This document shows positions 42,369 through 61,466 of a DNA stretch of 64,000 nucleotides, one piece after another (position 1 is the stretch's first letter; each line of letters begins with the position of its first letter). The notes below the pieces were generated by a model, which had not been told where the DNA came from, made no database searches, and saw only the letters and a list, made by a program, of their open reading frames with translations. The position numbers and the translations under genes were made by a program. Location of the stretch: assembly GCF_003052165.1 (NCBI RefSeq), contig NZ_CP024869.1, positions 2,576,001 through 2,640,000 on the forward strand, in the 5' to 3' direction. The stretch comes from Dietzia sp. JS16-p6b. Its GTDB lineage: Bacteria > Actinomycetota > Actinomycetes > Mycobacteriales > Mycobacteriaceae.

Positions 42369-43265
42369 TCAGCTCCGCGAGGACTCGCGGATGCTGGTGA
42401 TGATGGCGCTGAAGTCCTTGCCACCGTTGTCCTGCGCGAACTCGTCGTACAGGGCCGCCGCTGCTGCTCCCAGCGGAGCGACCGTACCAGTGCTCTCCAG
42501 GGCCGCGAGCGCCAGCCCGAGATCCTTGTTCATGAGAGCCGTGGCGAAGCCGGGCGTGAAGTCGTTGTTGGCGGGCGAGGTGGGGACGGGGCCGGGGACG
42601 GGGCAGTTGGTGTGCAGCGCCCAGCTGTTGCCGGTCGCGCCGGTGACCACGTCGAAGAGGGCCTGGTGATCGAGGCCCAGTCCCTCCGCGAGCACGAACG
42701 CCTCGGCGATCGCGATCTGGTGCACGGCCAGCACCATGTTGTTGCAGACCTTGGCGGCCTGCCCGGCCCCCGCCCCTCCGCAGTGGATGACCTTGCCCGC
42801 CATGGGCTCCAGGACGGGCTGCGCGGCCGCGAACGCCTCGTCCTCCCCGCCGACCATGAACGCCAGCGTGCCGGCGGTCGCACCCTTGACGCCACCGGAG
42901 ACGGGCGCGTCGACCTGGAGCATCCCGGCGTCCACCGCCTTGGCATGGACCGCACGGGCGTCGTCGACCGAGATCGTGGAGGAGTCGATGAACAGGGTCC
43001 CCTCCCCCGCCTCGCCCAGCACTTCGTCATAGGTCGAGGTCACCAGCGCACCGTTGGGCAGCATCGTGATCACCACACCTGCTCCCCTGACCGCCTCGGC
43101 GGGCGAGTCACACACGGTGACCCCGGCGGTGCGGGCCGCCTCCTGCGCCGCTTCCACCGGGTCGAACCCCCTGACGACGAATCCGGCGCCCACCAGATTG
43201 GCGGCCATGGGTCCACCCATGTTGCCCAGCCCGAGAAACGCCACGGTCTGCGATCGGTTGTCCAT
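42369..43265 (-). CDS. mmsB: 3-hydroxyisobutyrate dehydrogenase
   Basis: This enzyme oxidises 3-hydroxyisobutyrate to methylmalonate semialdehyde with NAD in valine breakdown. The 298-residue product has the Rossmann start FLGLGNMGGPMAANLVGAGF, the substrate segment VDAPVSGGVKGATAGTLAFM, and the catalytic lysine in GAGQAAKVCNNMVLAVH. It lies three bases after the isobutyryl-CoA dehydrogenase stop and in the same direction as mmsA, which supports the assignment over other beta-hydroxyacid dehydrogenases. Confidence 0.93.
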   Translation of the reverse strand: MDNRSQTVAFLGLGNMGGPMAANLVGAGFVVRGFDPVEAAQEAARTAGVTVCDSPAEAVRGAGVVITMLPNGALVTSTYDEVLGEAGEGTLFIDSSTISVDDARAVHAKAVDAGMLQVDAPVSGGVKGATAGTLAFMVGGEDEAFAAAQPVLEPMAGKVIHCGGAGAGQAAKVCNNMVLAVHQIAIAEAFVLAEGLGLDHQALFDVVTGATGNSWALHTNCPVPGPVPTSPANNDFTPGFATALMNKDLGLALAALESTGTVAPLGAAAAALYDEFAQDNGGKDFSAIITSIRESSRS

Positions 43266-43268
43266 GTC

Positions 43269-44444
43269 CTACGCTCCCAGTCCGCGCGCGGCGACGGCCC
43301 GGCCGACGACGACACGCATGATTTCGTTCGTCCCCTCCAGGATGCGGTGCACCCGGAGATCTCGCACGATCTTCTCTATTCCGTACTCGGCGAGGTATCC
43401 GTACCCGCCGAAGAGTTGCAGTGCCCGGTCCGCGATGTCGAAGCAGTGGTCGGTGACGAACAGCTTCGCCATCGCGCACTTCTCGACATGGTCCGGCTCC
43501 TTGGCGTCCAGGGCCGCGGCGGCCCGCCACAGCATGAGCCGGCTGGCCTCCAACTCCGTCGCCATCTCGGCGAGGGTGAAGCGGATCGTCGGCTCGTCGA
43601 TGAGCGCACCGCCGAAGGCCTCCCGGTCCCGCACGTGGGCGACGGCCCGCGAGTACGCGTCCTGGGCCCCACCCAGGGAGCAGGCGGCGATGTTGATGCG
43701 CCCGCCGTTGAGGCCCTTCATGGCGATGGTGAACCCGAGGCCCTCTCCCCCCGTTTCGGCGCCACCGATGAGGTTCGCGGCCGGGACCCGGACACCCTCC
43801 ATGATCACCTGCGCGGTCGGCTGGGCGTTCCACCCCATCTTCTGCTCGTCCGGGCCGAAGCTCAGTCCCTCGGAGTCCGCGGGGACGAGAAAAGCCGAGA
43901 TCCCTTTGGGGCCGGCCTCACCGGTGCGGGCCATCACCACGTAGACGTCCGACTGACCCCCACCGGAGATGAACTGCTTGGTGCCGGTGAGGACGTACTC
44001 CGCGGACTCGCCCTCGCCCTCCTTGACCGCCTTGGTCCGCAGGGCCGCCGCGTCCGAACCGGCACCGGGCTCGGTGAGGCAGTAGCTGGCGAACAGCTCC
44101 AGCGACGCCATCCTCGGGATCCACTCGCGACGCTGCTCCTCGGTGCCGAACTCGTCGACCATCCACACGCACATGTTGTGGATGGACAGGTACGCGGCCA
44201 CCGACGGGCATCCCCGGGCGAGCTGCTCGAAGATCCGGACACCGTCGAGGCGACGCATCCCGCTGCCCCCGACGTCCTCGGAGACGTAGATGGCGCCCAT
44301 CCCCATCTCGGCCGCCTCGCGGAGGACGTCTTTCGGGAAATGATGGCTCGCGTCCCACTCCTGCGCCATGGGCGCGATCCGCTTGGCCGCGAAGTCGCGG
44401 GCGGTGTCGACGATGACCTTGTCGTCGTCATCCAGGGTGAACAT
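43269..44444 (-). CDS. acyl-CoA dehydrogenase, probably isobutyryl-CoA dehydrogenase
   Basis: A 391-residue FAD enzyme. It has YCLTEPGAGSDAAALRTKAV, LQLFGGYGYLAEYGIEK and the C-terminal catalytic glutamate in HRILEGTNEIMRVVVGR, unlike the two dehydrogenases of the 25-31 kb operon. The position between mmsA and mmsB points to isobutyryl-CoA to methacrylyl-CoA. I chose the ATG at 44444 with AGAGGA seven bases upstream. A methacrylyl-CoA hydratase and 3-hydroxyisobutyryl-CoA hydrolase are not in this cluster and must be elsewhere. Confidence 0.9.
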   Translation of the reverse strand: MFTLDDDDKVIVDTARDFAAKRIAPMAQEWDASHHFPKDVLREAAEMGMGAIYVSEDVGGSGMRRLDGVRIFEQLARGCPSVAAYLSIHNMCVWMVDEFGTEEQRREWIPRMASLELFASYCLTEPGAGSDAAALRTKAVKEGEGESAEYVLTGTKQFISGGGQSDVYVVMARTGEAGPKGISAFLVPADSEGLSFGPDEQKMGWNAQPTAQVIMEGVRVPAANLIGGAETGGEGLGFTIAMKGLNGGRINIAACSLGGAQDAYSRAVAHVRDREAFGGALIDEPTIRFTLAEMATELEASRLMLWRAAAALDAKEPDHVEKCAMAKLFVTDHCFDIADRALQLFGGYGYLAEYGIEKIVRDLRVHRILEGTNEIMRVVVGRAVAARGLGA

Positions 44445-48282: not shown

Positions 48283-49158
48283 TCAGGACCTGACGATGCC
48301 GTCGATCTCCTCGGGGGTCCACGGCGGACTGTCGTGGAAGTCGCGGAACGCCAGGATCTGCGCCTCCGGGGCCGGGAATCGCCCGATGAAGCCACCCGAT
48401 CCGGCGAAGACCCCGCCGGTGACACCCTGGGCCAACTCGGAGACGAGATAGGTGTAGAGCGGCGCCACGTACTCAGGGCCGGCCGGATCGAGGGCACCGG
48501 CCACGCTGAGCTCGTCGAGCATCCCCCGGCGGCCCAGCTCCCGGATCTGGTTCTCGTACCCCTGCCCGCTCGACAACCGGGTCCGGGCGCCCGGGCACAC
48601 GACGTTCGCCCGCACGCCGTGCTCGGCGAGCTCGGCCGCGATCGCCATGGTCAACGAGGTGACCGCGCCCTTGCCCGCCGGGTAGCCCGTTCCCCCGTAG
48701 TCGCCCTTCCAGGCGAACGAGGACGTGGTGACGATGGCGCCCGCCCCGGCGGCGACGAAATGCGGTGCGAACACGCGGCACGGCGCGAAGACAGACCCGA
48801 GGTGCGCGTCCATGAGTGCCTCGAAGTCGGCGTGACTCACGGTGAGGATCGAGGACCCCGCGGGTTCGGCCACGCCCGCGCAGGTGATCAGACCGGACAC
48901 CACCGACCCGTCGCGGGCCGCTTCGGCGAGCAGCGACTGCGCCACCGCGGGCTCGTGCGCCGACCCGGGGACCCCGGTGATGCGGCCGTCGGACCGCGCG
49001 GAGAGTTCGGCGACCCGATCGCGCAGCGCCGCCTCGTCGCGCCCGTTGAGCACCACGTCCGCGCCGCGGCCGGCCAGGTCGTCCGCGACCGCCGCACCGA
49101 TCCCGCGGGAGGACCCGGTGACCGCGAAGGACCGGCCGTCCAGCCGCAGCCCGGTCAC
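48283..49158 (-). CDS. short-chain dehydrogenase/reductase
   Basis: A 291-residue NAD(P)-dependent oxidoreductase. The cofactor motif is TGSSRGIGAAVADDL, the central NAG-type motif appears as ITCAGVAEP, the catalytic serine is in TTSSFAWKGDYGG, and the Tyr/Lys pair is GYPAGKGAV. The C-terminal 60 residues extend beyond the core fold. The start is GTG at 49158, overlapping the ligase stop by four bases (GTGA). It is the last gene of the long minus-strand CYP51 unit and would act on a hydroxyl/keto group of the pathway intermediate. Substrate unknown. Confidence 0.87.
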   Translation of the reverse strand: MTGLRLDGRSFAVTGSSRGIGAAVADDLAGRGADVVLNGRDEAALRDRVAELSARSDGRITGVPGSAHEPAVAQSLLAEAARDGSVVSGLITCAGVAEPAGSSILTVSHADFEALMDAHLGSVFAPCRVFAPHFVAAGAGAIVTTSSFAWKGDYGGTGYPAGKGAVTSLTMAIAAELAEHGVRANVVCPGARTRLSSGQGYENQIRELGRRGMLDELSVAGALDPAGPEYVAPLYTYLVSELAQGVTGGVFAGSGGFIGRFPAPEAQILAFRDFHDSPPWTPEEIDGIVRS

Positions 49159-50816
49159 GCCGAGCCGACGGCGTCCGTACGCCGGTCGTGGTCGGGGGCG
49201 CGCTCGGCCACCAGTCGCCGCGCCCATCCGTAGTCGGTCTTGCTGCTGGGGTGGCGCTCGACGCGGTCGACCACCCAGTACGCCGCGGGGATCTTGAAGC
49301 CGGCGAGGTGCTCGCGCAGCGCCTGCCCGACGGACTCGAGATCTCCGGCATCAGCGGTGTCCGACCACTGGATCACCGCGCCCACGCGGTGTCCGAACCG
49401 CTCGTCCGGGATGCCGAACGCCACCGCGTCCTCGATCCCGTCCACCGCCTTGAGCGCGGCCTCGACCTCCTCGGCGAAGATCTTCTCGCCGCCCGAGTTG
49501 ATCACCTGACTCGCCCGACCGAGCATGATGATCGTCTCCGGGCCGTCATAGCGTCCGCGGTCGCCGGTGAACACCCGACGGGTGCCCGCGATCTCCCGGA
49601 AGGTCTCGGCGGTCTTGGCCTCGTCCTTGTAGTACCCGGCGGGCTGGTAGCCGCTCTTGACGATCCAGCCGATCTCCGTCGAGTCGTCCGCGAGCGGCTC
49701 GTCGAAATCGTCGACGAGCTGCAGGGTGGTCCCCCTGGGGATCCGCGGACCGTGATCGGCGAACAGCGATCCGTCGTCGAGGTTCGCCTTGGTGACCACG
49801 CCCAGACCGCCGAAACCGCCTTCGGACGACCCGAACGCGTCCATGATCATCAGATCGGGGCGGAGCTCGAGCAGGTCCGCCTTGACCGACGGGGAGAACA
49901 GGGCGGCGCCCGAGGAGACCATGAACATGCTCGAGGTGTCGGGGTCGGTCCGACGCATCTGGTCCACGATCGGCCGGACCATCGCGTCCCCCGCCACCAC
50001 GGCGACCTGGATCTTCTCGCTCTCGATCTCCTCCAGGGCGTCCGCCACCCGGAAGTGCGGGAGATAGTGCATGGTGCCGCCGGCGAACAGTCCGGTGAAG
50101 CTGGGCATGATGCCCGAGGTGTGGATGAGCGGGAGCAGGATCAGGTAGCGCAGGGGATCGCCGCCGAGGCCGGACCGGGACTGGTGGTACTCGTCGGGCA
50201 CCGGCTCACCCGTGTGGTAGTCCGCACCGCCGCCGAGGCTGCGCCAGAGGTCCTCCTGACGCCACATCACGCCCTTGGGCTTTCCGGTGGTTCCGCCGGT
50301 GAACACCAGGTAGAGGTCGTCGCCGCTGCGCTCGAGCCGCGTGCGCTCCGTCGACGCCGCGTCCAGGATCTCCCGCGCGTCCAGGGCGCCGTCCGGGAGC
50401 GTGTCGACGGTCGATCCGTCCTCCACCACGATCGTGTGCCGGACGGAGTCGAGACCGCTGACGGCCTCGGTCACCGCACCACCGAATTCACGGTGGAAGA
50501 CCAACACGCTGGTGTCCGAGTAGTCGTAGAGGTAGCGCAGTTCCGCTCCCGAGTAGCGGTAGTTGATGCTGATGGTCACCGCCCGCAACTTGAGCACCCC
50601 GATGATCAGGGCCAGGCAGTCCACCCCGTTGCGCAGATGCACACCGACGTGGTCGCCGGCACCGACACCCAGGGAGGACAGTGCCGAGGCCCACCGGTTG
50701 GCCTCGGCCTCCAGGTCCGCGTAGGTGAGCCGACGTTCGTCCTCCACCACCGCCAGGCGGTCCGCGCCATAGGCGTCCACGGCGTGCTCGAAGAGGTCGG
50801 CCAGGTTGTGTGCCAT
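49155..50816 (-). CDS. FadD-type acyl-CoA synthetase
   Basis: A 553-residue ANL enzyme. The P-loop [20 protein letters not shown] with the VMWR extension is like FadD19/FadD17-type ligases of mycobacteria that activate steroid side chains or other bulky acids. Other motifs are [13 protein letters not shown] and [20 protein letters not shown] with [19 protein letters not shown]. At the C-terminus [12 protein letters not shown] appears in place of the usual catalytic-lysine motif, with the lysine retained. In this operon with two P450s it could activate a carboxylic acid made by oxidation. The steroid analogy is from memory of the family and is not proven. Confidence 0.88.
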
Positions 50817-50876: not shown

Positions 50877-52172
50877 TCAGACCGGGGTGATGGGCAGCGG
50901 CGTGCGGGTGGGTCCGAAGTCGAACGCGGCACCGGTACTGATGCGCGTGACCGCGACCTCCTCCGGCTCCGTTGCGGGTTCGTCGCCGAACCGGAGGACC
51001 GCCGCGACACGAGAGCCGTCCGAGGGCACGCGCTCGACCGTCCAGTGCGGGTCGACCGCCTGGGCCGCCGCGGCGAGGGGCCGCAGCCCCTCCCGGGCCA
51101 GCAGGGGCATCCAGGTGTCGTCGGCGAACGCGTCCGCCGCGGTGTCCCAGGAGACCGTGACACTCCGCCCGTCCCCGGAGACCGACGACGAGTACCCCGT
51201 GTACGCGGTCGGGCCGGCCAGGGGGTGGAGGTCGAGCACCGCCGCCAACCCGTGCGCGTCCCCGTCGGCGCCGAGACCACCGCCGAGCACGTCGCGGATC
51301 CGGCCCGCGGCGACCCCCGCGATGCCGGTCGCCTGATAGGCCAGCAACCGGTCCGCGGTCTCGGCGTCCGACCGACGGCGGACCGACTGGTGAAAGCCCA
51401 CCGCCAGCAGGTGCATCTGCAGGTACACCTCGCGCGTCATGCGGACGAGTGCGGCCGAGGTGAACTCGGGGAAGCTCAGATCCGTCAACAGCGGGCCGGC
51501 GTAGTCGTCGCGGGGGCCCTGACCGGTCGTGTCCTCCGGTGCCGGCGGCTCGAACGAGAAGTCGACCACCCGGCTGCTCGCGGACTCGACCGCCGGCTCG
51601 GGCCACGCCGCCGGCTCCGCGTCCGGGTCGATCCGAACGATCCAGTGGCAGTGCGGCGTCCGGCCCTCCGGGCTGCGTGGTGGCCGGTGGACCGGTTCCA
51701 CGACGGCCCGCGGGTTGGTGGCGAGCGCGGTGGCCGGGAAGGTGGGGTCCTCGATGTCGTGACACATCGTGGTGACGAGCCGGTCCCCCATCGGTTCGAC
51801 ATCCATCAGTGCGCCACAGTGGTCGAGCCAGAATTCCCCGTGATCGTGGTCGGTGATCCCGTAGCGGAAGTCCATGAACTCCGGCGGCGCCCCCACGTCC
51901 AGCTGGAAACCCTTGAAGATCTCCGCGACGCCGTCGCCCGTGATGGACAACGCCTCCTTCATCCGTCGGGTGTAGTGCGGGCTCGCGGCCTGCCACTCCT
52001 CGATCGCGACGTCCCGCATCCCGTCCACGCCGAACTCACCCAGGAGGGCCGGCATCCCCGCCCGGTCGATGAGCTGGCCGATCAGCAGCAGATCGGGGAG
52101 TAGCCGTGCGAGGGTCGCGTGATCGAGCGATTCCAGGGGGTCGCGTCTGACGACCGGGTCGCGCGTGGTCAT
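50877..52172 (-). CDS. protein of unknown function in the CYP51 operon
   Basis: I do not recognise this 431-residue protein. It has no signal peptide or membrane helix. A His/Asp-rich segment at about residues 105-130 (YGITDHDHGEFWLDHCG) and a later CHDIEDPTFPATALATN could bind metal. PRAVVEPVHRPPRSPEGRTP is Pro/Arg-rich. The C-terminal half is Ala-rich and probably helical. It lies between the NTF2-like and FadD genes, five bases after the former, and is clearly part of the unit. Base composition is like its neighbours, so there is no sign of recent transfer. Confidence 0.8.
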   Translation of the reverse strand: MTTRDPVVRRDPLESLDHATLARLLPDLLLIGQLIDRAGMPALLGEFGVDGMRDVAIEEWQAASPHYTRRMKEALSITGDGVAEIFKGFQLDVGAPPEFMDFRYGITDHDHGEFWLDHCGALMDVEPMGDRLVTTMCHDIEDPTFPATALATNPRAVVEPVHRPPRSPEGRTPHCHWIVRIDPDAEPAAWPEPAVESASSRVVDFSFEPPAPEDTTGQGPRDDYAGPLLTDLSFPEFTSAALVRMTREVYLQMHLLAVGFHQSVRRRSDAETADRLLAYQATGIAGVAAGRIRDVLGGGLGADGDAHGLAAVLDLHPLAGPTAYTGYSSSVSGDGRSVTVSWDTAADAFADDTWMPLLAREGLRPLAAAAQAVDPHWTVERVPSDGSRVAAVLRFGDEPATEPEEVAVTRISTGAAFDFGPTRTPLPITPV

Positions 52173-52177
52173 CGGAC

Positions 52178-52753
52178 TCAGACCTCGTCCGGCGTGGACA
52201 CCGGCCACAACGGGGCCGGGCTGTCCTCGATGCGGTACCACCCGGCAGGCTTGTCGCCGCCCGCCTCGAACCGGGCCTTCATCGAATCGGTGAGCGCGTC
52301 GGCCTCGTACATCCGCATGAACAGGTCCACCACGTTGCCGAAGTCGAAGAAGTCCCGCTGCCACTTCCACTGCTGCTCGCCGTTGTAGAGGAACCACGAC
52401 CCGCCGAGACCGTGGACCTCGTAGGGCGCGCCCGTCCTGGGGTCGACGGTGTCGCGGGCGATCTGCTTCCACAGGCACAGCACGTCACCGGTCTCGGGAT
52501 CGATGATGGTGCGGATGTAGGGGTACTCCCAGCCGTCGAGCCCGGCCATCTCCTGACCCAGCGCGACGTCACGGATCTCGTCCCGGCCGACGGCCATGAA
52601 GTCGTCCTTCGTGCCGTAGTTCCAGCCGTAGGTGGCGTCCTCGGCGTAGAACTCGGCGAGCGGGGTCCAGTCCTTGTTGCGCTCGCACTCGGCGTTGGCC
52701 TCGATCCATCGCTCCACGAACTCGGCGATCTCGGCGCGGTCGTATCGGGTCAC
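52178..52753 (-). CDS. NTF2/SnoaL-like protein
   Basis: A 191-residue protein with the cone-shaped NTF2 fold suggested by ANAECERNKDWTPLAEFYAE, DATYGWNYGTKDDFMAVGRD and the strand-rich segment GSWFLYNGEQQWKWQRDFFD. Such proteins include ketosteroid isomerases, polyketide cyclases and dehydratases, or they only bind ligand. I chose the GTG at 52753 with AGGAG eight bases upstream; a GTG at 52762 lies on the ribosome-binding site itself. It follows the ferredoxin gene immediately. A role as isomerase or hydratase on a P450 product is a guess. Confidence 0.82.
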   Translation of the reverse strand: MTRYDRAEIAEFVERWIEANAECERNKDWTPLAEFYAEDATYGWNYGTKDDFMAVGRDEIRDVALGQEMAGLDGWEYPYIRTIIDPETGDVLCLWKQIARDTVDPRTGAPYEVHGLGGSWFLYNGEQQWKWQRDFFDFGNVVDLFMRMYEADALTDSMKARFEAGGDKPAGWYRIEDSPAPLWPVSTPDEV

Positions 52754-52754
52754 G

Positions 52755-52991
52755 TCACTCACTCCTGGGGGTCCGGGTCCCGACGAGGCGGAGTGCCTGA
52801 GTCGGGCAGTACTTGACGGCGGCCTTGACTCCCGCCAGCTGGTCGTCGGGGATATCGCCCCGCTTGGCGCGCACCTTGGCCTCCGCGCCCTTGCCCACCG
52901 TGAACCAGTCGGGGGCCTCGGCCTGGCACTCCGCGTGCCCCTGGCACAGGTCGAAGTCCACTTCCACACGCATCGGCTGCTGTGCGGTCAC
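52755..52991 (-). CDS. [3Fe-4S] ferredoxin for P450
   Basis: A 78-residue ferredoxin. The cluster ligands are Cys16, Cys22 and Cys62 in DLCQGHAECQ and KYCPTQAL. Histidine 19 replaces the second cysteine of a [4Fe-4S] motif, as in the P450-linked ferredoxin beside CYP51 in M. tuberculosis (Rv0763c). The start is GTG at 52991 with GGAGGAGG upstream, overlapping the CYP51 stop by four bases. It should carry electrons to CYP51 and perhaps the second P450. No reductase gene is in the cluster. Confidence 0.92.
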   Translation of the reverse strand: MTAQQPMRVEVDFDLCQGHAECQAEAPDWFTVGKGAEAKVRAKRGDIPDDQLAGVKAAVKYCPTQALRLVGTRTPRSE

Positions 52992-54385
52992 CGGCGCTGC
53001 CTCCTCCGGTAGCGGACGGTGCACGGCTGGGCCAGCTGGACGACCATCTTGGAGTGGTCGTTGTGGTAGCTCTCCGGCGGTTGCGCGAGCTCGAACTCGA
53101 ACTCCCGCAGCAGGATCGAGAAGATGGCCTTGATCTGGAGCTGGGCGAACGCCGCCCCCACGCAGCGGTGTCGTCCGGCGCCGAAGGGGATCCAGGTCCA
53201 CCGGTTGACGATGTCCTCCTGTCGCGGCTCGGAGTAGCGCTCCGGGTCGAACGTGTCGGGGTCCGGGAAATCCTCGGGGAGCCGGTTGGAGACCGCCGGG
53301 GAGGCCGCGACGGTCTGCCCGGCACGGACGACGTGGTCGCCGATCCGGACGTCCTCCTGCGCCACCCGCATGAGGATGATGAGGGGCGGGTGAAGACGCA
53401 GCGTCTCTTTGAGGGCGTTCTCGACCTTGGGCATCTGACGTAGCGCCCCGAAGCTGTACTCGGCGCCGTCCGAGTAGACCTCGTCGAGTTCGGCGACCAC
53501 CTCCGCGAGGTAGTCCGGGTGCCTGAGCAGCTCGATGAGCATCCACGCACTGGTGCCGGAGGTGGTGTGATGCCCGGCGAACATCATGGAGATGAAGATG
53601 CCGGTGACCTCGTCCGGGGTGAAGCGGTACGTGCCGTCGTCGTTCTTGACGGACACCAGGACGTCGAGCAGGTCCCGGTCCTCCTTGTCCGCCGGAGGGT
53701 TGGCGACCCGCTCCTCCATGATCGCGGACACGAGCTCCACCAGTCCGGCCCGGGCCGCGTCCCGCTTGCGGAACGCGGGGATGTCGGCGTAGGCGTCGAT
53801 GTACGCGTGGGGGTCGGTGCCCTGCTCGAGGTCGTGATACAGGTGCGCGAACCGCGCGTCGAGCTGCTCCCGGAACTTCGGACCGATCAGGCACGCCGAG
53901 GAGGTGTAGATGGTGAGTTCGGAGAACCACTCGAGCAGGTCGATCTCGCCCTCGTCGCCCCACTCGCCCACCATCCGCTGCACCTCGTGGGGGATGGTGA
54001 CGGCGTGCTGGCGCATGTGCTCGCCGCGCAGCGCCGTGTTGTGCAGCATCTCCGAGCGACGCTCGGGACTGGCGTCGAACACGACGCCCTCCCCGAACAC
54101 CGGCGTCATGAACGGGTAGGCGGCGGCCTGGTCGAGGGACTCGTCCGGGGCGCGGAAGAAGGCCTCGTTGGCGGCCGCCCCGGAGGCCAGGCAGATGTCG
54201 CGGTCGACGATCTTGAACACGCCGAGGTCGCCGCACTCCTCGCGCACCCGCCAGAACAGGCCGATCGGGTCGGTACGGAGTTCGTCCATGTGCCCCAGCT
54301 CGCCCCCGCCGCCGGAGACCCGCCGCGGTTCGGTGAGGGTGGAGGTGTCGGTGGGCGTGTCGGTGGAGCCGTCGGTACTGGTCAC
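52988..54385 (-). CDS. cyp51: cytochrome P450 CYP51 (sterol 14-alpha-demethylase family)
   Basis: A 465-residue P450 that aligns by eye through its whole length with M. tuberculosis CYP51. It shares RVSGGGGELGHMDELRTDP, YPFMTPVFGEGVVFDASPER, the I-helix FAGHHTTSGTSAW, ETLRLHPPLIILMRVA and the heme loop PFGAGRHRCVGAAF (Cys about 408). The conserved tyrosine and phenylalanine of the substrate pocket are kept. CYP51 enzymes demethylate sterols at C14. Actinobacteria like this are not known to make sterols, so the natural substrate is open. The start is GTG at 54385 with GAGGAGG upstream. It is translationally coupled to the SDR before it and the ferredoxin after it. Confidence 0.95.
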   Translation of the reverse strand: MTSTDGSTDTPTDTSTLTEPRRVSGGGGELGHMDELRTDPIGLFWRVREECGDLGVFKIVDRDICLASGAAANEAFFRAPDESLDQAAAYPFMTPVFGEGVVFDASPERRSEMLHNTALRGEHMRQHAVTIPHEVQRMVGEWGDEGEIDLLEWFSELTIYTSSACLIGPKFREQLDARFAHLYHDLEQGTDPHAYIDAYADIPAFRKRDAARAGLVELVSAIMEERVANPPADKEDRDLLDVLVSVKNDDGTYRFTPDEVTGIFISMMFAGHHTTSGTSAWMLIELLRHPDYLAEVVAELDEVYSDGAEYSFGALRQMPKVENALKETLRLHPPLIILMRVAQEDVRIGDHVVRAGQTVAASPAVSNRLPEDFPDPDTFDPERYSEPRQEDIVNRWTWIPFGAGRHRCVGAAFAQLQIKAIFSILLREFEFELAQPPESYHNDHSKMVVQLAQPCTVRYRRRQRR

Positions 54386-55176
54386 GAGTAATCCTCCTCG
54401 ATTGGGGCCTCCGGCTGGATCTCCAGCTCGGTGATCTGGGCGCCGCGGGGCATCGCCACCATGGCGGCGACCCCCCGGGCGAGGTCGGCCGGTTTGCACA
54501 TGCGCGGGTGACGACCGAAGCCGTGCTTGACCCAGTCGTTGATGACCGACTCCGCGGTCTCCGCATCGAACTCGGTGCCCATCTCGGTCATCACCGGCCC
54601 GGGGCGGACCACCCCGAGGCGGATCCCCGTACCCTCGAGTTCCTTGCGGGCCTGGTGGGCCATCGTCTCCAGGCCGGCTTTGGCCGCGACGTACGCGCCG
54701 GAGCGGGGCCGGGCGGTGTAGGCCACATCGGATCCGATGAGGACCACGTCTCCCCGACGGCGGTCGACCATCCCGGGGACCACGGCGTGGAGGAGTCGCT
54801 GCACGGCGAGTAGGTGGATGTCGATCTGGGCGGCGAAGTCCTCGGGGTCCATCTCCCACACGCGGGCCATCTTCAGGCTGCCGGCACTGGAGACGAGGAC
54901 CTCGGGTGGGCCGTACGCCTCGCCGGCGGCGGCCACGAACCCGGCGACCGAGTCGGCGTTGGTCACGTCGACCGGTCGGGCGGTGGCCCGTCCCCCGGCG
55001 TCCCGGATCCGGCCCACGAGGTCGTCGAGGCGGTCGGCACGGCGGGCCCCCACGACCACGGGGTGCCCGAGCGCCGCCAGCGCCTCCGCGGAGGCGCGAC
55101 CGATCCCCGAGGAGGCGCCAGTGACGAGCGCGGGGCGCTCGGACGCGTCCGGCTGCGGGGGGAACTTCAGACTCAT
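54382..55176 (-). CDS. short-chain dehydrogenase/reductase (Rv0765c-like)
   Basis: A 264-residue SDR. The cofactor motif is VTGASSGIGRASAEAL, the arginine in VGARRADRL suggests NADP, the active site is VVLIGSDVAYTARPRSGAY then YVAAKAGLE with the Tyr-x3-Lys pair. It sits between the two P450 genes, as in the M. tuberculosis locus, and shares one base with the P450 stop before it. It probably oxidises or reduces the P450 product; substrate unknown. Confidence 0.9.
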   Translation of the reverse strand: MSLKFPPQPDASERPALVTGASSGIGRASAEALAALGHPVVVGARRADRLDDLVGRIRDAGGRATARPVDVTNADSVAGFVAAAGEAYGPPEVLVSSAGSLKMARVWEMDPEDFAAQIDIHLLAVQRLLHAVVPGMVDRRRGDVVLIGSDVAYTARPRSGAYVAAKAGLETMAHQARKELEGTGIRLGVVRPGPVMTEMGTEFDAETAESVINDWVKHGFGRHPRMCKPADLARGVAAMVAMPRGAQITELEIQPEAPIEEDYS

Positions 55177-56390
55177 CAGCGCCTGACCTCGACACGCATG
55201 GGCAGGTGCGCGAAGCCGCGCACGTTGGACGAGTGCACGCGCTCGGCGCCGGGGAGGATCTCGTACCCCGTGATCGACCGTGAGATCTGGTCGAGCGCGA
55301 TCCGCCCCTCGAGCCTCGCGAGGTGCGCTCCCAGGCAGAAGTGTGGCCCCTGCCCGAAGCTCAGACTGGCGGAGGTGTCGCGACCGAGACGGAAGGTGTC
55401 GGCGTCGTCGAAGACCTCCTCGTCGCGGTTGGCCGCGCCGATGAGCAGGAGCACCTTCTGGTCTGCGGGGATGGTGACGCCGCGGACCGTGACGTCCTGC
55501 ATCGTCGTGCGCAGGACCAACTGGCTCGACGTGTCGTAGCGCAGCGTCTCCTCGACCCAGTCGCTCACCCGCTCCGGGGCGTCGATCACCAGCTGCGCCT
55601 GGTCCGGGTTCCGGTGCCCCCAGAACATCGCGTTGGCGAGCAGCTTGGTGGTGGTCTCGTTGCCCGCCACCACCATGAGGAAGAGGAAGGACAGGATCTC
55701 GTCCTCGTCGAGCTTCTCCCCGTCGATCTCGGCGTCGATCAGCGCCGAGGTCAGGTCCTCGGTCCGCTCCTCACGCCGCTCGGCGACCATGCCCTGGTAG
55801 TAGGTGATGAGGTCGAGGGCCGCGACCATCGAGTCCTCGGGCACGTCCTGACCGCCCTCCTCGCGGTGCATGACCAGGTCTGCGAGCCGGCGGAGCTCGT
55901 CGCGGTCCGACTCGGGCACTCCCATCAGGTCCGAGATGACGTCCATCGGCAGCTTGCCCGCGTAGTCCTGGACGAAGTCGAACTCGCCGCCGTCGCGGGA
56001 CTTGGCCAGGCATTCGTCCCAGTACCGACGGGAGATCCGCGCGATTCCCTCCGAGAGCGCGTCGACCCTCCGGGAGGTGAAGCCCTTGCTCACGAGTTTG
56101 CGCAGTCGCGCGTGCCTGGGGTCGTCCATCGCCAGGAAGGACATGGTCTTGTAGGCGTGCCGACCGTACGCCGCGGGGTCGAGGGAGACCCCCAGGGAGT
56201 TGGAGAACACGTCGGGTGCGCGGAACGCCTCACGGACGTCGGCATGCTTGCTCAGCGCCCAGAAATCGAGGTCCGGGTTGTGGTACACGGGGGCCTCGGC
56301 GCGCAACCGGGCGTAGAACGGGTACGGGTCCTCGTGGACCGCGTAGTCGTACGGGCTGAACACGAGCGGGGCGGGTGTCGCGGTGGTCAT
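55176..56390 (-). CDS. cytochrome P450, CYP123-like
   Basis: A 404-residue soluble P450. The I-helix is FLMVVAGNETTTKLLANAM, ExxR is ETLRYDTSSQL, and the heme loop is SFGQGPHFCLGAHLARLEGR (Cys352). FLAMDDPRHARLRKLVSKGF is the usual C-helix region. Position between a TetR gene and an SDR-CYP51-ferredoxin string matches cyp123 (Rv0766c) in M. tuberculosis. Family assignment is by synteny; the sequence itself shows only a class I bacterial P450. It starts nine bases after the TetR stop. Confidence 0.9.
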   Translation of the reverse strand: MTTATPAPLVFSPYDYAVHEDPYPFYARLRAEAPVYHNPDLDFWALSKHADVREAFRAPDVFSNSLGVSLDPAAYGRHAYKTMSFLAMDDPRHARLRKLVSKGFTSRRVDALSEGIARISRRYWDECLAKSRDGGEFDFVQDYAGKLPMDVISDLMGVPESDRDELRRLADLVMHREEGGQDVPEDSMVAALDLITYYQGMVAERREERTEDLTSALIDAEIDGEKLDEDEILSFLFLMVVAGNETTTKLLANAMFWGHRNPDQAQLVIDAPERVSDWVEETLRYDTSSQLVLRTTMQDVTVRGVTIPADQKVLLLIGAANRDEEVFDDADTFRLGRDTSASLSFGQGPHFCLGAHLARLEGRIALDQISRSITGYEILPGAERVHSSNVRGFAHLPMRVEVRR

Positions 56391-56399
56391 GTCTCGGGG

Positions 56400-56972
56400 T
56401 CACCTCAGGATGAGTCGGGCGGCGGACTCGATGGCGTCCGCCATGTCGGAGTAGGAGCCGTAGCCCATGCCTGCGCGGACGAGCGCGCCGGCGTAGACCA
56501 TCTCCAGGGCGTCGATCACCTCGTCGTCGGCCTCATCACCCAGCGCGGCCGTCAGACGCCGACGGATGTCGGCACCGATCCGGATCCTCAGGTGGGACAC
56601 CTCCGGATCGTCGCCCAGGAGGGCCGCGGTGACCGCCGAGGAGAGCTCGGGCTCGTCCGCCACCAGCAGCGCGACATCGCGCAGGACCGCCACCACCCTG
56701 TCCACCGTGGTGCCGGCCGAGGCGCCCTCGGTGACGTGGTCGCGGAGGCGTCGCCAGAACACCTCCGCGATGAGGTGGCCCTTGGAGGAGAAGTAGGTGT
56801 ACGCGGTGGCCGGGGCGACGCCGGCCTTGGCCGCCACCGCCCGGACCGCGAGGCCGCCCGGCCCCTTCTCGCGCAAGACCTCGACGGCCGCGCTGGTGAG
56901 GCGGTCGACGGTCTCGGCCTGCTGGCCGTTGAGACGCCTTCGCGTGGATTCGAAACGCACGTCACTGGACAT
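56400..56972 (-). CDS. TetR-family regulator (Rv0767c-like)
   Basis: A 190-residue regulator. The helix-turn-helix is at about residues 18-62 (DRLTSAAVEVLREKGPGGLA, VRAVAAKAGVAPATAYTYFS). I chose the ATG at 56972, because the upstream in-frame part overlaps the divergent promoter region and is not conserved. It heads the minus-strand P450 unit. Two symmetric motifs in the gap before it are candidate operators. Confidence 0.9.
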   Translation of the reverse strand: MSSDVRFESTRRRLNGQQAETVDRLTSAAVEVLREKGPGGLAVRAVAAKAGVAPATAYTYFSSKGHLIAEVFWRRLRDHVTEGASAGTTVDRVVAVLRDVALLVADEPELSSAVTAALLGDDPEVSHLRIRIGADIRRRLTAALGDEADDEVIDALEMVYAGALVRAGMGYGSYSDMADAIESAARLILR

Positions 56973-56973
56973 G

Positions 56974-57022
56974 TGTCTGGACAGTACACCACTGGCCGGA
57001 CTATCGTCTAGACAGTTGTCTA
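56974..57022. promoter_or_regulatory. two TetR-operator candidates in a divergent promoter gap
   Basis: TGTCTGGACA at 56974-56983 and TAGACAGTTGTCTA at 57009-57022 share the half-site TGTC(T)/(A)GACA. They lie in the 88-base gap between the TetR gene and the aldehyde dehydrogenase gene. Their placement would let one repressor control both divergent units. Confidence 0.65.
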
Positions 57023-57060
57023 CCCACTGAATGTCCATCAACCCTGACGGAAGGCCCCCC

Positions 57061-58536
<1,476 letters not shown>

Positions 58537-58590
58537 CATTCCACCCCCACCCGAACCACCACCCCTGACGAGAAGGAAGAGACCACAGAT

Positions 58591-59343
58591 ATGGGACGTT
58601 TTGACGGTAAGTCCGTGATCGTGACCGGCGCGGCCGGCGGGATCGGCGAGGAGTACGCCAAGGCCCTCGCCGCGGAGGGCGCGAAGGTCGTGGTGGCCGA
58701 CGTCTCGGACACCGAGGGACAGCGCGTGGCGCAGGAGATCACCGCGGCCGGTGGGGAGGCGTTCTTCCAACACACCGACGTCTCCGACCCGGACTCGGCC
58801 GGGGCCTGCGCCGAGTCCGCCGTGGACAGGTTCGGCCGGCTGGACATGCTGGTCAACAACGCCGCGATCTTCGGCGGGATGAAACTCGACTTCCTCATCA
58901 CCGTGCCGTGGGACTACTACGAGAAGTTCATGTCGGTGAACCTGAACGGTCAGCTGATCATGGTCCGCGCCTGCTGGGAGAAGATGGCGGCCGCCGGCGG
59001 TGGCGCCATCGTCAACCAGTCCTCCACCGCCGCGTGGCTCTACTCGGGCTTCTACGGCCTGGCCAAGGTGGGTGTCAACGGCCTCACCCAGCAGTTGGCC
59101 ACCGAACTGGGCGGGTCCAACATCCGCATCAACGCGATCGCGCCCGGCCCGATCGACACCGAGGCCAACCGCTCGACCACCCCCCAGTCCATCGTCAAGG
59201 ACATGGTGGACAAGCTCCCGCTCAAGAGGATGGGACAGCCGGAGGACCTGGTCGGGATGCTGCTCTTCCTGCTCTCGGACGAGGCGTCGTGGATCACCGG
59301 TCAGATCTTCAACGTCGACGGCGGACAGGTCATCAGGTCGTGA
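58591..59343 (+). CDS. short-chain dehydrogenase/reductase (Rv0769-like)
   Basis: A 250-residue SDR: VTGAAGGIGEEYAKAL, an aspartate after the second strand (VVADVSDTEG) that favours NAD, LVNNAAIFGG, the serine in IVNQSSTAAWLYSGFYGLAK with Tyr and Lys, and the C-terminal WITGQIFNVDGGQVIRS. It follows the aldehyde dehydrogenase by 54 bases. It probably acts on a secondary alcohol or ketone of the same pathway. Confidence 0.92.
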   Translation: MGRFDGKSVIVTGAAGGIGEEYAKALAAEGAKVVVADVSDTEGQRVAQEITAAGGEAFFQHTDVSDPDSAGACAESAVDRFGRLDMLVNNAAIFGGMKLDFLITVPWDYYEKFMSVNLNGQLIMVRACWEKMAAAGGGAIVNQSSTAAWLYSGFYGLAKVGVNGLTQQLATELGGSNIRINAIAPGPIDTEANRSTTPQSIVKDMVDKLPLKRMGQPEDLVGMLLFLLSDEASWITGQIFNVDGGQVIRS

Positions 59344-60338
59344 GCGTGAACCCGGCCGACATCTCCGGGCAGGGCGCCGGAGCCGCACCCGTGGGTCCGG
59401 GCTCCCCGGAGGACTCCCCCGCGCCCGTCGGGTTCATCGGGCTGGGCAACATGGGCGCGCCCATCGCCCGTCGGTTGCTGTCGTGGCCCGGCGGCCTGGT
59501 CGTCTGCGACGTCCGCCCCGAGGCGACCGAACCGTTCACCGCGGAGGGGGCCACCTCCGGCGCGACACCGGCCGAGGTGGCCCGGACGGCCAGACTCGTC
59601 TCGGTGACGGTTCTCGACGACGCGCAGGTCCGTGACGTCGTCGACGGCCCCGACGGGATCCTGCGCACGGCCGGTCCGGGAACGGTGGTGGCGGTCCATT
59701 CCACCATCTCCGACTCCACGGCCGTAGAGCTCGCCAGGGCGTGCGGAACGCACGGCGTACACCTGGTGGACGCCCCGGTCTCGGGCGGGGCACCAGGCGC
59801 GGAAAAGGGGGAGCTCGCGGTGATGGTGGGCGGGACGCGCGAGGTCTACGAGGCCTGCAAGCCCGTCTTCGCGCTGTGGGCCGCGCTGCCGGTCCACGCC
59901 GGCGAGGTGGGGGCGGGTACGCGGATGAAGCTGGCCCGCAACCTGCTGCACTTCATCTCGTTCACCGCCGCCGCCGAGGCTTCCCGATTGGCGGAGGCCG
60001 CGGGACTCGACATCGCCAAGCTGGGCCGCGTGGTGCGGCACACCGACGCCATCACCGGTGGCGCCGGCGCGGTGATGTTGCGGGACACCACCGCGCCGAT
60101 CGCCCCCGACGACTTCTGGCACGGTGTCTTCACCCACGTCCGGGGCCTCGGCGAGAAGGACCTCTCACTGGCCCTGGATCTCGGGCAGCGGCTGGAGGTG
60201 GACCTGCCGCTCGGGACCATCGCGTTGCGCGACCTGGGCTCCGGTTTCGGCGTGGGGCCGGGAGAGATCGCCCGCCGCGCCGCGGGCGCGCCCGGGGATG
60301 ACGGCGGTATCACCGACGACGACGAGGGAGCACGATGA
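59340..60338 (+). CDS. 3-hydroxyisobutyrate dehydrogenase-like protein (Rv0770-like)
   Basis: A 332-residue beta-hydroxyacid dehydrogenase family member: Rossmann start GFIGLGNMGAPIARRLL, substrate segment VDAPVSGGAPGAEKGELAVM, and the catalytic lysine in GAGTRMKLARNLLHFIS. A Pro/Gly/Ala-rich N-terminus of about 30 residues precedes the fold. The start is taken as the GTG at 59340 that overlaps the SDR stop; GTG 59346 is an alternative. It differs from mmsB at 42369, and its place in this locus suggests a different substrate. Confidence 0.88.
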   Translation: MSVNPADISGQGAGAAPVGPGSPEDSPAPVGFIGLGNMGAPIARRLLSWPGGLVVCDVRPEATEPFTAEGATSGATPAEVARTARLVSVTVLDDAQVRDVVDGPDGILRTAGPGTVVAVHSTISDSTAVELARACGTHGVHLVDAPVSGGAPGAEKGELAVMVGGTREVYEACKPVFALWAALPVHAGEVGAGTRMKLARNLLHFISFTAAAEASRLAEAAGLDIAKLGRVVRHTDAITGGAGAVMLRDTTAPIAPDDFWHGVFTHVRGLGEKDLSLALDLGQRLEVDLPLGTIALRDLGSGFGVGPGEIARRAAGAPGDDGGITDDDEGAR

Positions 60339-60751
60339 GCGACACGGCAGAATCCGGGATGTCCCCGGAGCGCGAGCGCGGGCTGGCCATGATGACCGAG
60401 GTCTACGGCTTCGAGATGACCGACGGGCCGGGTGACTACTTCGCCGAGACCGCGGACCACCTGTTCGGGCGCGTGTGGTCCCGACCCGGTCTGAGCCACC
60501 GCGACCGCCGCCTGCTCCTGCTGGGCGCGCTCACCGCTCAGGGGAACACGGACATCGCCGACATCCAGGTGGGCGCCGCGCTGGGCAACGGCGAGCTGAC
60601 ACCCGAGGAACTGGAGGAGATCGTGCTGTTCCTCTGCTACTACGCGGGCTGGCCGAACGGCACCAAGCTGGGCAACGTGGTGGGCCCGCACGTCGCGCGC
60701 GCCCGGAAGGCCGCCCGGCGGGCCGAGGCGGGGAACGATGGCCGCGACTGA
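60335..60751 (+). CDS. carboxymuconolactone decarboxylase family protein (Rv0771-like)
   Basis: A 138-residue protein of the CMD/AhpD fold. It has LSHRDRRLLLLGALTAQGNT, IQVGAALGNGELTPEELEEI and LFLCYYAGWPNGTKLGNVV. The AhpD CxxC motif is absent, so this is the gamma-carboxymuconolactone decarboxylase type rather than a peroxidase. The ATG at 60335 overlaps the previous stop by four bases. In M. tuberculosis the same gene closes the locus. Confidence 0.9.
   Translation: MSDTAESGMSPERERGLAMMTEVYGFEMTDGPGDYFAETADHLFGRVWSRPGLSHRDRRLLLLGALTAQGNTDIADIQVGAALGNGELTPEELEEIVLFLCYYAGWPNGTKLGNVVGPHVARARKAARRAEAGNDGRD

Positions 60752-60797: not shown

Positions 60798-61466
<669 letters not shown>

Follow-up and report, generated by a model that had tools for sequence, protein, structure and literature searches.

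A CYP51 gene cluster in Dietzia as a proposed cassette for the demethylation of exogenous sterols

The DNA analyzed here, a 64,000-nucleotide stretch that we call the window, comes from Dietzia sp. JS16-p6b, whose genome (G000) is one contig of 3.72 Mb, and it carries a locus built around the cytochrome P450 gene CYP51. We read this locus as a TetR-controlled catabolic cassette that would demethylate exogenous sterols of the lanosterol, cycloartenol, or obtusifoliol type, at C-14 and then, putatively, at C-4, and we give this reading a probability of about 60%. The locus itself is ordinary; its interest lies in a possible new route of C-4 demethylation.

In the proposed order of steps, CYP51 and a ferredoxin would remove the 14-alpha-methyl group to leave an 8,14-diene, and an 8,14-sterol reductase (8,14-Bsr) would convert the diene to the 8(14)-ene, as homologues of these proteins do elsewhere. 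After the C-14 step, a lanosterol-type molecule keeps two methyl groups at C-4. The second P450, CYP123, may oxidize a C-4 methyl to the alcohol, perhaps further, and a short-chain dehydrogenase/reductase (SDR) of the NAD type, together with the aldehyde dehydrogenase AldA, could carry the alcohol to the acid, in mycobacteria perhaps with an NDMA-type AdhB as well. A beta-hydroxyacid dehydrogenase of the HIBDH (hydroxyisobutyrate dehydrogenase) type could oxidize the 3-beta-OH of the 4-carboxysterol, a CMD-like protein could decarboxylate the beta-keto acid, and an NADPH-type SDR could restore the 3-OH, so that the second C-4 methyl can leave. In cells that possess ordinary sterol degradation, the products could then pass into it. 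U431, an undescribed protein, and an acyl-CoA synthetase have no firm role in this scheme.

The locus and its mycobacterial counterparts

An initial annotation had described nine genes at 52755..60751 as a gene-for-gene match to Rv0763c-Rv0771 of Mycobacterium tuberculosis. By open reading frame and profile checks, all nine sit at the coordinates given there and belong to the families named. They are listed below in window coordinates, together with two sites of an operator that the annotation had missed, and followed by two members of the unit that it had missed as well (the Rv0762c-like Bsr gene and U431) and by two optional members.

52755 to 52991, minus strand: ferredoxin, 3Fe-4S type, Rv0763c-like (Fer4_15 match)
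52988 to 54385, minus strand: CYP51, predicted sterol 14-alpha-demethylase (719 bits against the Rv0764c structure 1e9x)
54382 to 55176, minus strand: SDR, Rv0765c-like (PRK07775, 335.6 bits against a cut-off of 260; residue conservation)
55176 to 56390, minus strand: second P450, CYP123-like, candidate C-4 methyl oxidase (p450 match)
56400 to 56972, minus strand, with a longer start possible at 57077: TetR regulator, Rv0767c-like (TetR_N match)
56966 to 56979, no strand: predicted operator site 1, TGGACATGTGTCTG (motif scan)
57009 to 57022, no strand: predicted operator site 2, TAGACAGTTGTCTA (motif scan)
57031 to 58536, plus strand: AldA, aldehyde dehydrogenase, Rv0768-like (TIGR04284 "aldehy_Rv0768," 838 bits against a cut-off of 775)
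58591 to 59343, plus strand: SDR, Rv0769-like (PRK07774, 422 bits against a cut-off of 303; residue conservation)
59340 to 60338, plus strand: HIBDH-like beta-hydroxyacid dehydrogenase, Rv0770-like, candidate 3-OH oxidase of the 4-carboxysterol (NAD_binding_2 and NAD_binding_11)
60335 to 60751, plus strand: CMD-like protein, Rv0771-like, candidate beta-keto acid decarboxylase (CMD, 43.6 bits against 23)
52178 to 52762, minus strand: NTF2-fold protein, predicted 8,14-Bsr homologue, Rv0762c-like (pocket residues, NTF2-like model, Foldseek)
50877 to 52172, minus strand: U431, no known family, internal duplication (model, half-to-half alignment, distribution)
49155 to 50816, minus strand: acyl-CoA synthetase, operon end, optional member (PRK07798, 585 bits against a cut-off of 543)
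48283 to 49158, minus strand: third SDR, optional member (adh_short match)

Most adjoining genes of the nine-gene set overlap by 1 to 8 bases, the GTG start of the ferredoxin gene overlapping the CYP51 stop. From TetR to the NTF2-fold gene (52178), the minus-strand genes overlap or nearly touch; U431 follows after 5 bases and the CoA synthetase after a further 60, and the run extends through the third SDR down to 48283. The plus-strand order is AldA, SDR, HIBDH, and CMD, with overlaps of 4 bases at the last two joints.

Comparisons were made against named mycobacterial loci, the H37Rv gene list (Rv0762c-Rv0771) being taken from a table in PMC10470581. Identities to the Mycolicibacterium locus L030 are 71% for CYP51, 44% for the ferredoxin, 47% for the SDR, 56% for CYP123, and 49% for TetR; among the plus-strand genes, they are 63% (AldA), 68% (SDR), 59% (HIBDH), and 57% (CMD). 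The best solved matches to CYP51 are CYP51B1 (7tef, 728 bits) and Rv0764c (1e9x, 719 bits). Alignment, which the initial annotation had proposed as the test of orthology, thus assigns the nine Dietzia genes as orthologues of the mycobacterial set.

Gene order was counted in named loci, sampled as the best 80 of at least 524 confirmed CYP51 loci; 63 of these span ≥20 kb, the 17 below that length were excluded, and insertions were tolerated if the span was <12 kb. The nine genes have identical order and strands in 47 of the 63 long loci: Mycobacterium (21/21), Mycobacteroides (1/1), Gordonia (10/11), Williamsia (5/5), Rhodococcus (5/7), Haloechinothrix (2/2), Jongsikchunia (1/1), Speluncibacter (1/1), Dietzia (1/2), Aldersonia (0/1), and Nocardia (0/11). 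The CoA synthetase is present in 13 and the third SDR in 37 of the same 63. Among the best 80, the nearest named locus is that of Dietzia natronolimnaea (96% CYP51 identity).

Scores, identities, and order therefore bear out the match to the Rv0763c-Rv0771 layout, which as such was already known. The proposed extent holds for the nine genes themselves but not as the limit of the unit at 52755, since the next, Rv0762c-like gene belongs to it as well. The initial annotation placed this conservation "outside mycobacteria," which describes a short distance, because Dietzia belongs to the order Mycobacteriales. With M. tuberculosis Rv0762c-Rv0771, the Dietzia locus shares the nine genes and the Rv0762c-like gene, in the order and on the strands of the mycobacterial loci examined, and, as in most of those loci, its divergent TetR-AldA gap holds two operator sites. 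The mycobacterial loci continue with AdhB (Rv0761c-like, TIGR03989) and an Rv0760c-like gene, whereas the Dietzia locus, to which this comparison was confined, lacks both and has U431, the CoA synthetase, and the third SDR in their place.

C-14 demethylation and the source of the sterol

All 27 distinct solved sequences that match CYP51 at 1e-60 carry CYP51 or sterol demethylase as their name, and the heme-Cys motif FGAGxHRCVG is invariant in 10 CYP51 sequences. After 7tef and 1e9x come 6mcw, 7jj1, and 6mi0 (453 bits), which we take to be Methylococcus CYP51, and then eukaryotic-type CYP51 at ≤255 bits. By its nearest solved relatives and its heme-Cys motif, the Dietzia protein fits a sterol 14-alpha-demethylase. 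The best solved match of the ferredoxin is 8amp, a "Possible ferredoxin," and the second is residues 470-539 of the CYP51 chain 6mcw. M. tuberculosis CYP51 demethylates lanosterol, dihydrolanosterol, and obtusifoliol (PMC6469627), and lanosterol is demethylated by a Rhodococcus CYP51 (PMC11279926).

A sequence search of the adjacent NTF2-fold protein against the Protein Data Bank (PDB) gave no match; its identity came through PMC13277303, which describes an NTF2-superfamily 8,14-sterol reductase (8,14-Bsr) encoded beside CYP51 and ferredoxin. There, the M. tuberculosis 8,14-Bsr is active on the 8,14-diene that CYP51 makes from lanosterol and yields the 8(14)-ene. The model of the Dietzia protein is NTF2-like (pLDDT 90.4), with 317 PDB matches at E ≤0.001 in Foldseek. 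The six pocket residues tested in PMC13277303 (Y37/Y43/Y78/Y80/D133/D136) map to Y39, Y45, Y80, Y82, D137, and D140, by number and spacing and without the Methylococcus sequence; the spacings are 6, 35, 2, 53, and 3 in that source and 6, 35, 2, 55, and 3 in Dietzia. Y39 is kept in 30 of 32 aligned sequences and the other five in 32/32, and Haloechinothrix aidingensis (L036) has Phe at the first position, in agreement with a remark in PMC13277303. Fold, pocket residues, and adjacency to CYP51 and ferredoxin all point to an 8,14-Bsr homologue, and by analogy with the M. tuberculosis protein it would convert the 8,14-diene to the 8(14)-ene. The initial annotation called the substrate still unknown, a view that no longer holds for these first two steps, because homologues of both CYP51 and 8,14-Bsr act on lanosterol-type sterols.

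Distribution was assessed in one draw of 296 actinobacterial genomes, in which CYP51 (E 1e-60) occurs in 11 and Bsr (E 1e-15) in the identical 11. A search of 14 genomes with one Pfam cyclase model (PF13243, E 1e-10) found no match in any of the 11 CYP51 genomes, one of which, G052, is 82% complete; the sole match was in G204, which lacks CYP51. The CYP51 genomes most likely cyclize neither sterols nor hopanoids, and a self-made sterol or hopanoid as substrate is rejected on this result. The suggestion that the substrate need not be a sterol made by the cell is thereby upheld: because the cyclase is missing in 11/11, the sterol would come from outside. The same CYP51/ferredoxin/Bsr module is found in Methylococcus (PMC13277303), which makes its own sterol and has the ferredoxin fused to CYP51, whereas in Dietzia no cyclase was found, the ferredoxin is separate, and there are extra oxidation genes.

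Genes of steroid metabolism accompany the locus in several genera. In Dietzia, KstD scores above cut-off (927 against 788 bits), and Mce4_CUP1 has 13 matches, with the nearest operon ~21 kb past the locus. A CYP125-type P450 (580 bits) adjoins the locus in Nocardia, and in Nocardia, Rhodococcus, and Speluncibacter, Mce genes are neighbors of the locus or of CYP51. TIGR04284 is a family that we take to be tied to mycofactocin. The mycofactocin maturase MftC is above cut-off in Dietzia and G294 and was not found above cut-off in the CYP51 genomes G016, G025, and G052. Mycofactocin was rejected as a defining link, since G016 has an AldA above the TIGR04284 cut-off without such an MftC, a pattern that contradicts the description assumed for the family.

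Distribution and regulation of the gene set

The rest of the gene set follows CYP51 closely. HIBDH (E 1e-50) occurs in 10 of the 296 genomes, all CYP51-bearing, and G294 is the sole CYP51 genome without it. CYP123 at E 1e-70 is found in 14: those at ≥55% identity are ten, the CYP51 set minus G294, and the remaining four reach ≤46%. AldA exceeds the TIGR04284 cut-off in eight, each with CYP51. By kinship labels, four CYP51 genomes (G016, G025, G052, and G294) lie outside the class. G016 holds the whole set in a different order, with U431 at about half length. G025 and G052 have CYP123, SDR, CYP51, ferredoxin, Bsr, SDR, HIBDH, and U431 in one run, in orders that differ, on contigs too short to show the remaining locus genes. 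G294 has only TetR, CYP51, ferredoxin, and Bsr within 20 kb, and a search of its genome gave the C-14 part without the rest. The same holds within 21 kb for Dietzia aerolata (L017), where only CYP51, ferredoxin, Bsr, and a CoA synthetase are seen, under a different TetR gene. The distribution is mostly nested, with G064 as the one reverse case, and an order of C-14 before C-4 fits, because HIBDH, CYP123, and AldA nest within the CYP51-plus-Bsr genomes and not always the reverse.

U431 gave nothing better than E 0.013 in a Pfam search across 41 members and no match in a sequence search against the PDB. Its model has a pLDDT of 90.6, and its halves align to each other (probability 91, E 1.1e-6); it resembles two diverged copies of one domain, and the gene is one-copy in G134 and about half length in G016. 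Foldseek matches are sub-threshold, the best (E 0.042) being Bet3 of the TRAPP complex, with other TRAPP subunits and the phenol sensor MopR among the rest, a weak resemblance that is a lead toward a possible ligand-binding fold and no finding. U431 occurs in 13 of the 296 genomes, namely 10 of the 11 with CYP51 plus G064, G256, and G134. In G038, G096, and G150, which have the mycobacterial layout, it lies apart from the locus with no other locus gene seen beside it.

A predicted palindromic operator, YRGACANNTGTCYR, accompanies the locus genes even after relocation. The commonest 8-mer in 50 AldA-TetR (or AldA-CYP123) gaps is CATGTCCA, present in 43. A site with at most one mismatch to TRGACANNTGTCYA occurs in 78 of the 80 loci (134 sites overall), and the first 20 loci hold 25 sites, compared with 1.15 on average over 20 simple shuffles. 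In Nocardia, CYP51 is no longer beside the other genes, and sites are seen upstream of it as well as in the interval from CYP123 to AldA; in locus L046, one stands ahead of the Mce operon. Exact genome scans with YRGACANNTGTCYR, counting distinct palindromic sites against a control pattern, gave (control in parentheses) 8 (2) in G000, 11 (2) in G050, 4 (1) in G235, 10 (0) in G038, 2 (2) in G150, 1 (3) in G016, 2 (0) in G025, and 0 (0) in G294. Placement is the evidence in G016 and G150, because site counts alone are weak there: the single G016 site is in the divergent gap of the locus, and both G150 sites are by TetR-AldA. One of the two G025 sites directly precedes TetR-CYP123; the other, inside a ligase-like gene, is chance-like. 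KstR was rejected as the regulator of the locus, the TetR protein scoring 46 bits against a cut-off of 280.

The orthologous regulator Rv0767c is described with a palindromic "motif X" that marks 14 operons, of which phytosterol induced 12 by >3-fold (PMC6593523), and with sites rich in GAC and GTC (PMC10312376); in data cited by PMC6593523, most motif X genes were unresponsive in M. smegmatis and R. jostii. Our predicted regulon would share with it an orthologous TetR, a palindromic motif, and P450, aldehyde dehydrogenase, and SDR genes, and differs in that the site is here placed in further genera and two genomes outside the class, motif X being compared by description only. The operator scan would extend a known regulon to other genera; the regulon itself is not a discovery of this work.

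The initial annotation took the conservation of the locus to mean that the unit is one pathway. This claim gains support from the gene content kept with shuffled order outside the class, the nested distribution, the traveling operator, and the response in M. tuberculosis, in which Rv0762c-Rv0771 were all lowered together (0.14 to 0.25) in an aldehyde/copper study (PMC10470581). Together these are better evidence for one pathway than is order among close relatives.

Further operator sites were seen elsewhere. One in Dietzia (L153:8439; G000 2644438) lies 4.4 kb past the window end and ~40 bases ahead of a gene similar by eye to an F420-type LLM oxidoreductase (TIGR03619); a gene of this type (cluster c2) borders CYP51 loci of Rhodococcus, Speluncibacter, Aldersonia, and Nocardia. 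Another (L152:4105; G000 1061104) is upstream of an aldehyde dehydrogenase gene followed by what by eye are enoyl-CoA hydratase and flavin oxidoreductase genes. Three more Dietzia sites (L154, L155, and L156) were rejected as chance-like, and three in G038 (L163, L164, and L166) have no clear link to the locus. In G050 (L157:11774-13240) and G235 (L158:1558-3030), a gene resembling a PRK07121-type FAD dehydrogenase, by eye like the one in Rhodococcus loci, follows HIBDH or CMD and is itself followed by an operator and a TetR gene. G038 (L162:4393-5728) has a further TetR gene, seemingly of the same type; next to it are an operator and a methyltransferase gene similar by eye to window 60807-61466.

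Within the window, a third P450 gene (40162-41460), which adjoins a GAF-LuxR regulator, is separated from the ferredoxin gene by ~11 kb. Near the locus (42369-44444), HIBDH-family and acyl-CoA dehydrogenase genes form a pair that we presume to resemble mmsB-fadE9; fadE9 and mmsA appear on one expression list with Rv0762c and Rv0764c-0765c (PMC3380936). In G284 (C2:38278-41921), a genome without a CYP51 match, an AldA relative (722.6 bits, just below the TIGR04284 cut-off) adjoins a CYP123 relative (39%), possibly as part of a paralogous pathway.

The proposed C-4 route and its alternatives

Eukaryotes remove C-4 methyls with an oxygenase, a decarboxylating 3-OH dehydrogenase, and a 3-keto reductase. 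The HIBDH-like protein is our candidate for 3-OH oxidation because, like hydroxyisobutyrate, a 4-carboxysterol is an alpha-methyl beta-hydroxyacid. It scores 333 bits to structure 3qha, and its motifs DAPxSGG, GxGTxxKxARN, and KDxxLA, whose usual meanings we assume, are kept in at least 97% of 59 sequences. After the second strand, the Rv0765c-like SDR has Arg-Arg and the Rv0769-like SDR has Asp, residues that we take to mark NADPH-type and NAD-type enzymes, which suggests that the former uses NADPH and the latter NAD. Bacterial C-4 demethylation by SdmAB-type sets is known (PMC10202945), and a Leishmania P450, CYP5122A1, is a sterol C-4 methyl oxidase (PMC10402201). With SdmAB/SdmAC (PMC10202945) and SMO/ERG26/ERG27, the proposed route would share C-4 methyl oxidation, 3-OH oxidation, decarboxylation, and re-reduction; it would differ in its candidate oxygenase, a P450, and in having a beta-hydroxyacid dehydrogenase and a CMD-like protein as the candidate decarboxylating part. 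The Rieske family (SdmA) was not found among 20 window proteins, to which the scan was confined. A Mycobacterium sp. (NRRL B-3805 in the reference title) is cited in PMC13277303 as converting lanosterol to a C19 8(14)-steroid, and by carbon count a C19 product requires the loss of both C-4 methyls. None of the literature matches listed, which mostly leave out subscription papers, including the 1991 and 1995 lanosterol papers, was seen to describe the mycobacterial locus as acting in C-4 demethylation.

Several observations weigh against this reading as a whole or in part. The C-4 enzymes are candidates only, judged by families that all have other possible substrates, and the "C19" wording for the lanosterol product may be loose. 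The phytosterol study proposes that part of the regulon serves in side-chain oxidation, without limiting the function to that (PMC6593523). Fisher co-occurrence values (≤1.3e-13) overstate independence because 7 of the 11 CYP51 genomes are one family, and the co-occurrence does not represent 11 independent events. G064 has, on a 5-kb contig (L130), SDR, HIBDH in two pieces, CMD, and the end of U431, with no CYP51 match in the genome; as the genome is 62% complete, CYP51 may lie in the missing part. U431 is found without CYP51 in G256 (73% complete) and, at half length, in G134 (100% complete). The operator pattern is not above control in G016 (1 versus 3) or G150 (2 versus 2), and G294 has none. 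KstD (E 1e-60) was not found in the CYP51 genomes G016, G025, and G052 or in G294, nor was a Mce4-type match in G016 or G294, so that a link to the classical steroid pathway does not hold throughout.

Exogenous sterols might also be the substrate with demethylation at C-14 only, CYP123, AldA, and the other dehydrogenases attacking the side chain, for example a branched plant-sterol one. We consider this unlikely. To our knowledge, the beta-hydroxyacid dehydrogenase and CMD pair has no role in side-chain oxidation, and orthologues of HIBDH and CYP123 keep to genomes with CYP51 and Bsr, which are needless for side-chain cleavage of ordinary sterols. Moreover, CYP125, CYP124, and CYP142 already begin side-chain oxidation in mycobacteria (PMC6469627, PMC6593523). 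These points are set against a regulon that is phytosterol induced and partly so read by its discoverers (PMC6593523), a CYP125-type P450 that adjoins the locus in Nocardia, and the CoA synthetase at the operon end in Dietzia.

The four CYP51 genomes outside the class with no KstD match, and a CYP51 gene that is nonessential in M. tuberculosis (PMC6469627), would also suit a non-sterol or highly modified terpenoid substrate (a plant or algal triterpenoid or a cell lipid), the sterol activity of CYP51 and Bsr being an ancestral residue. This appears improbable, because a mere residue would hardly keep both CYP51 and Bsr, which co-occur in 11/11 genomes with the tested pocket residues kept; in some genera, moreover, sterol-type genes adjoin the locus or share its operator. 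An aldehyde or xenobiotic detoxification operon without a dedicated substrate is very improbable: the joint response of Rv0762c-Rv0771 in the aldehyde/copper study speaks for it, but that response is a decrease, not a rise (PMC10470581), and the gene set is rare, at 10 or 11 of 296 genomes.

We therefore retain the demethylation of exogenous sterols as our preferred reading. Its boldest form, held tentatively and at somewhat less than even odds, is that Actinobacteria have a further C-4 demethylation route, made up of CYP123, AldA, a beta-hydroxyacid dehydrogenase, and a CMD-type decarboxylase, in one regulated cassette with CYP51 and 8,14-Bsr, which would open plant, fungal, and animal 4,4,14-trimethylsterols to complete degradation. 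Locus content, distribution, and the published 8,14-Bsr result together give a concrete, ordered pathway that could be rebuilt in Escherichia coli. If the reading is true, the M. tuberculosis CYP51 locus gains a long-missing function; if its C-4 part is true, the locus would hold new C-4 demethylation chemistry and would explain how sterol degraders handle methylsterols.

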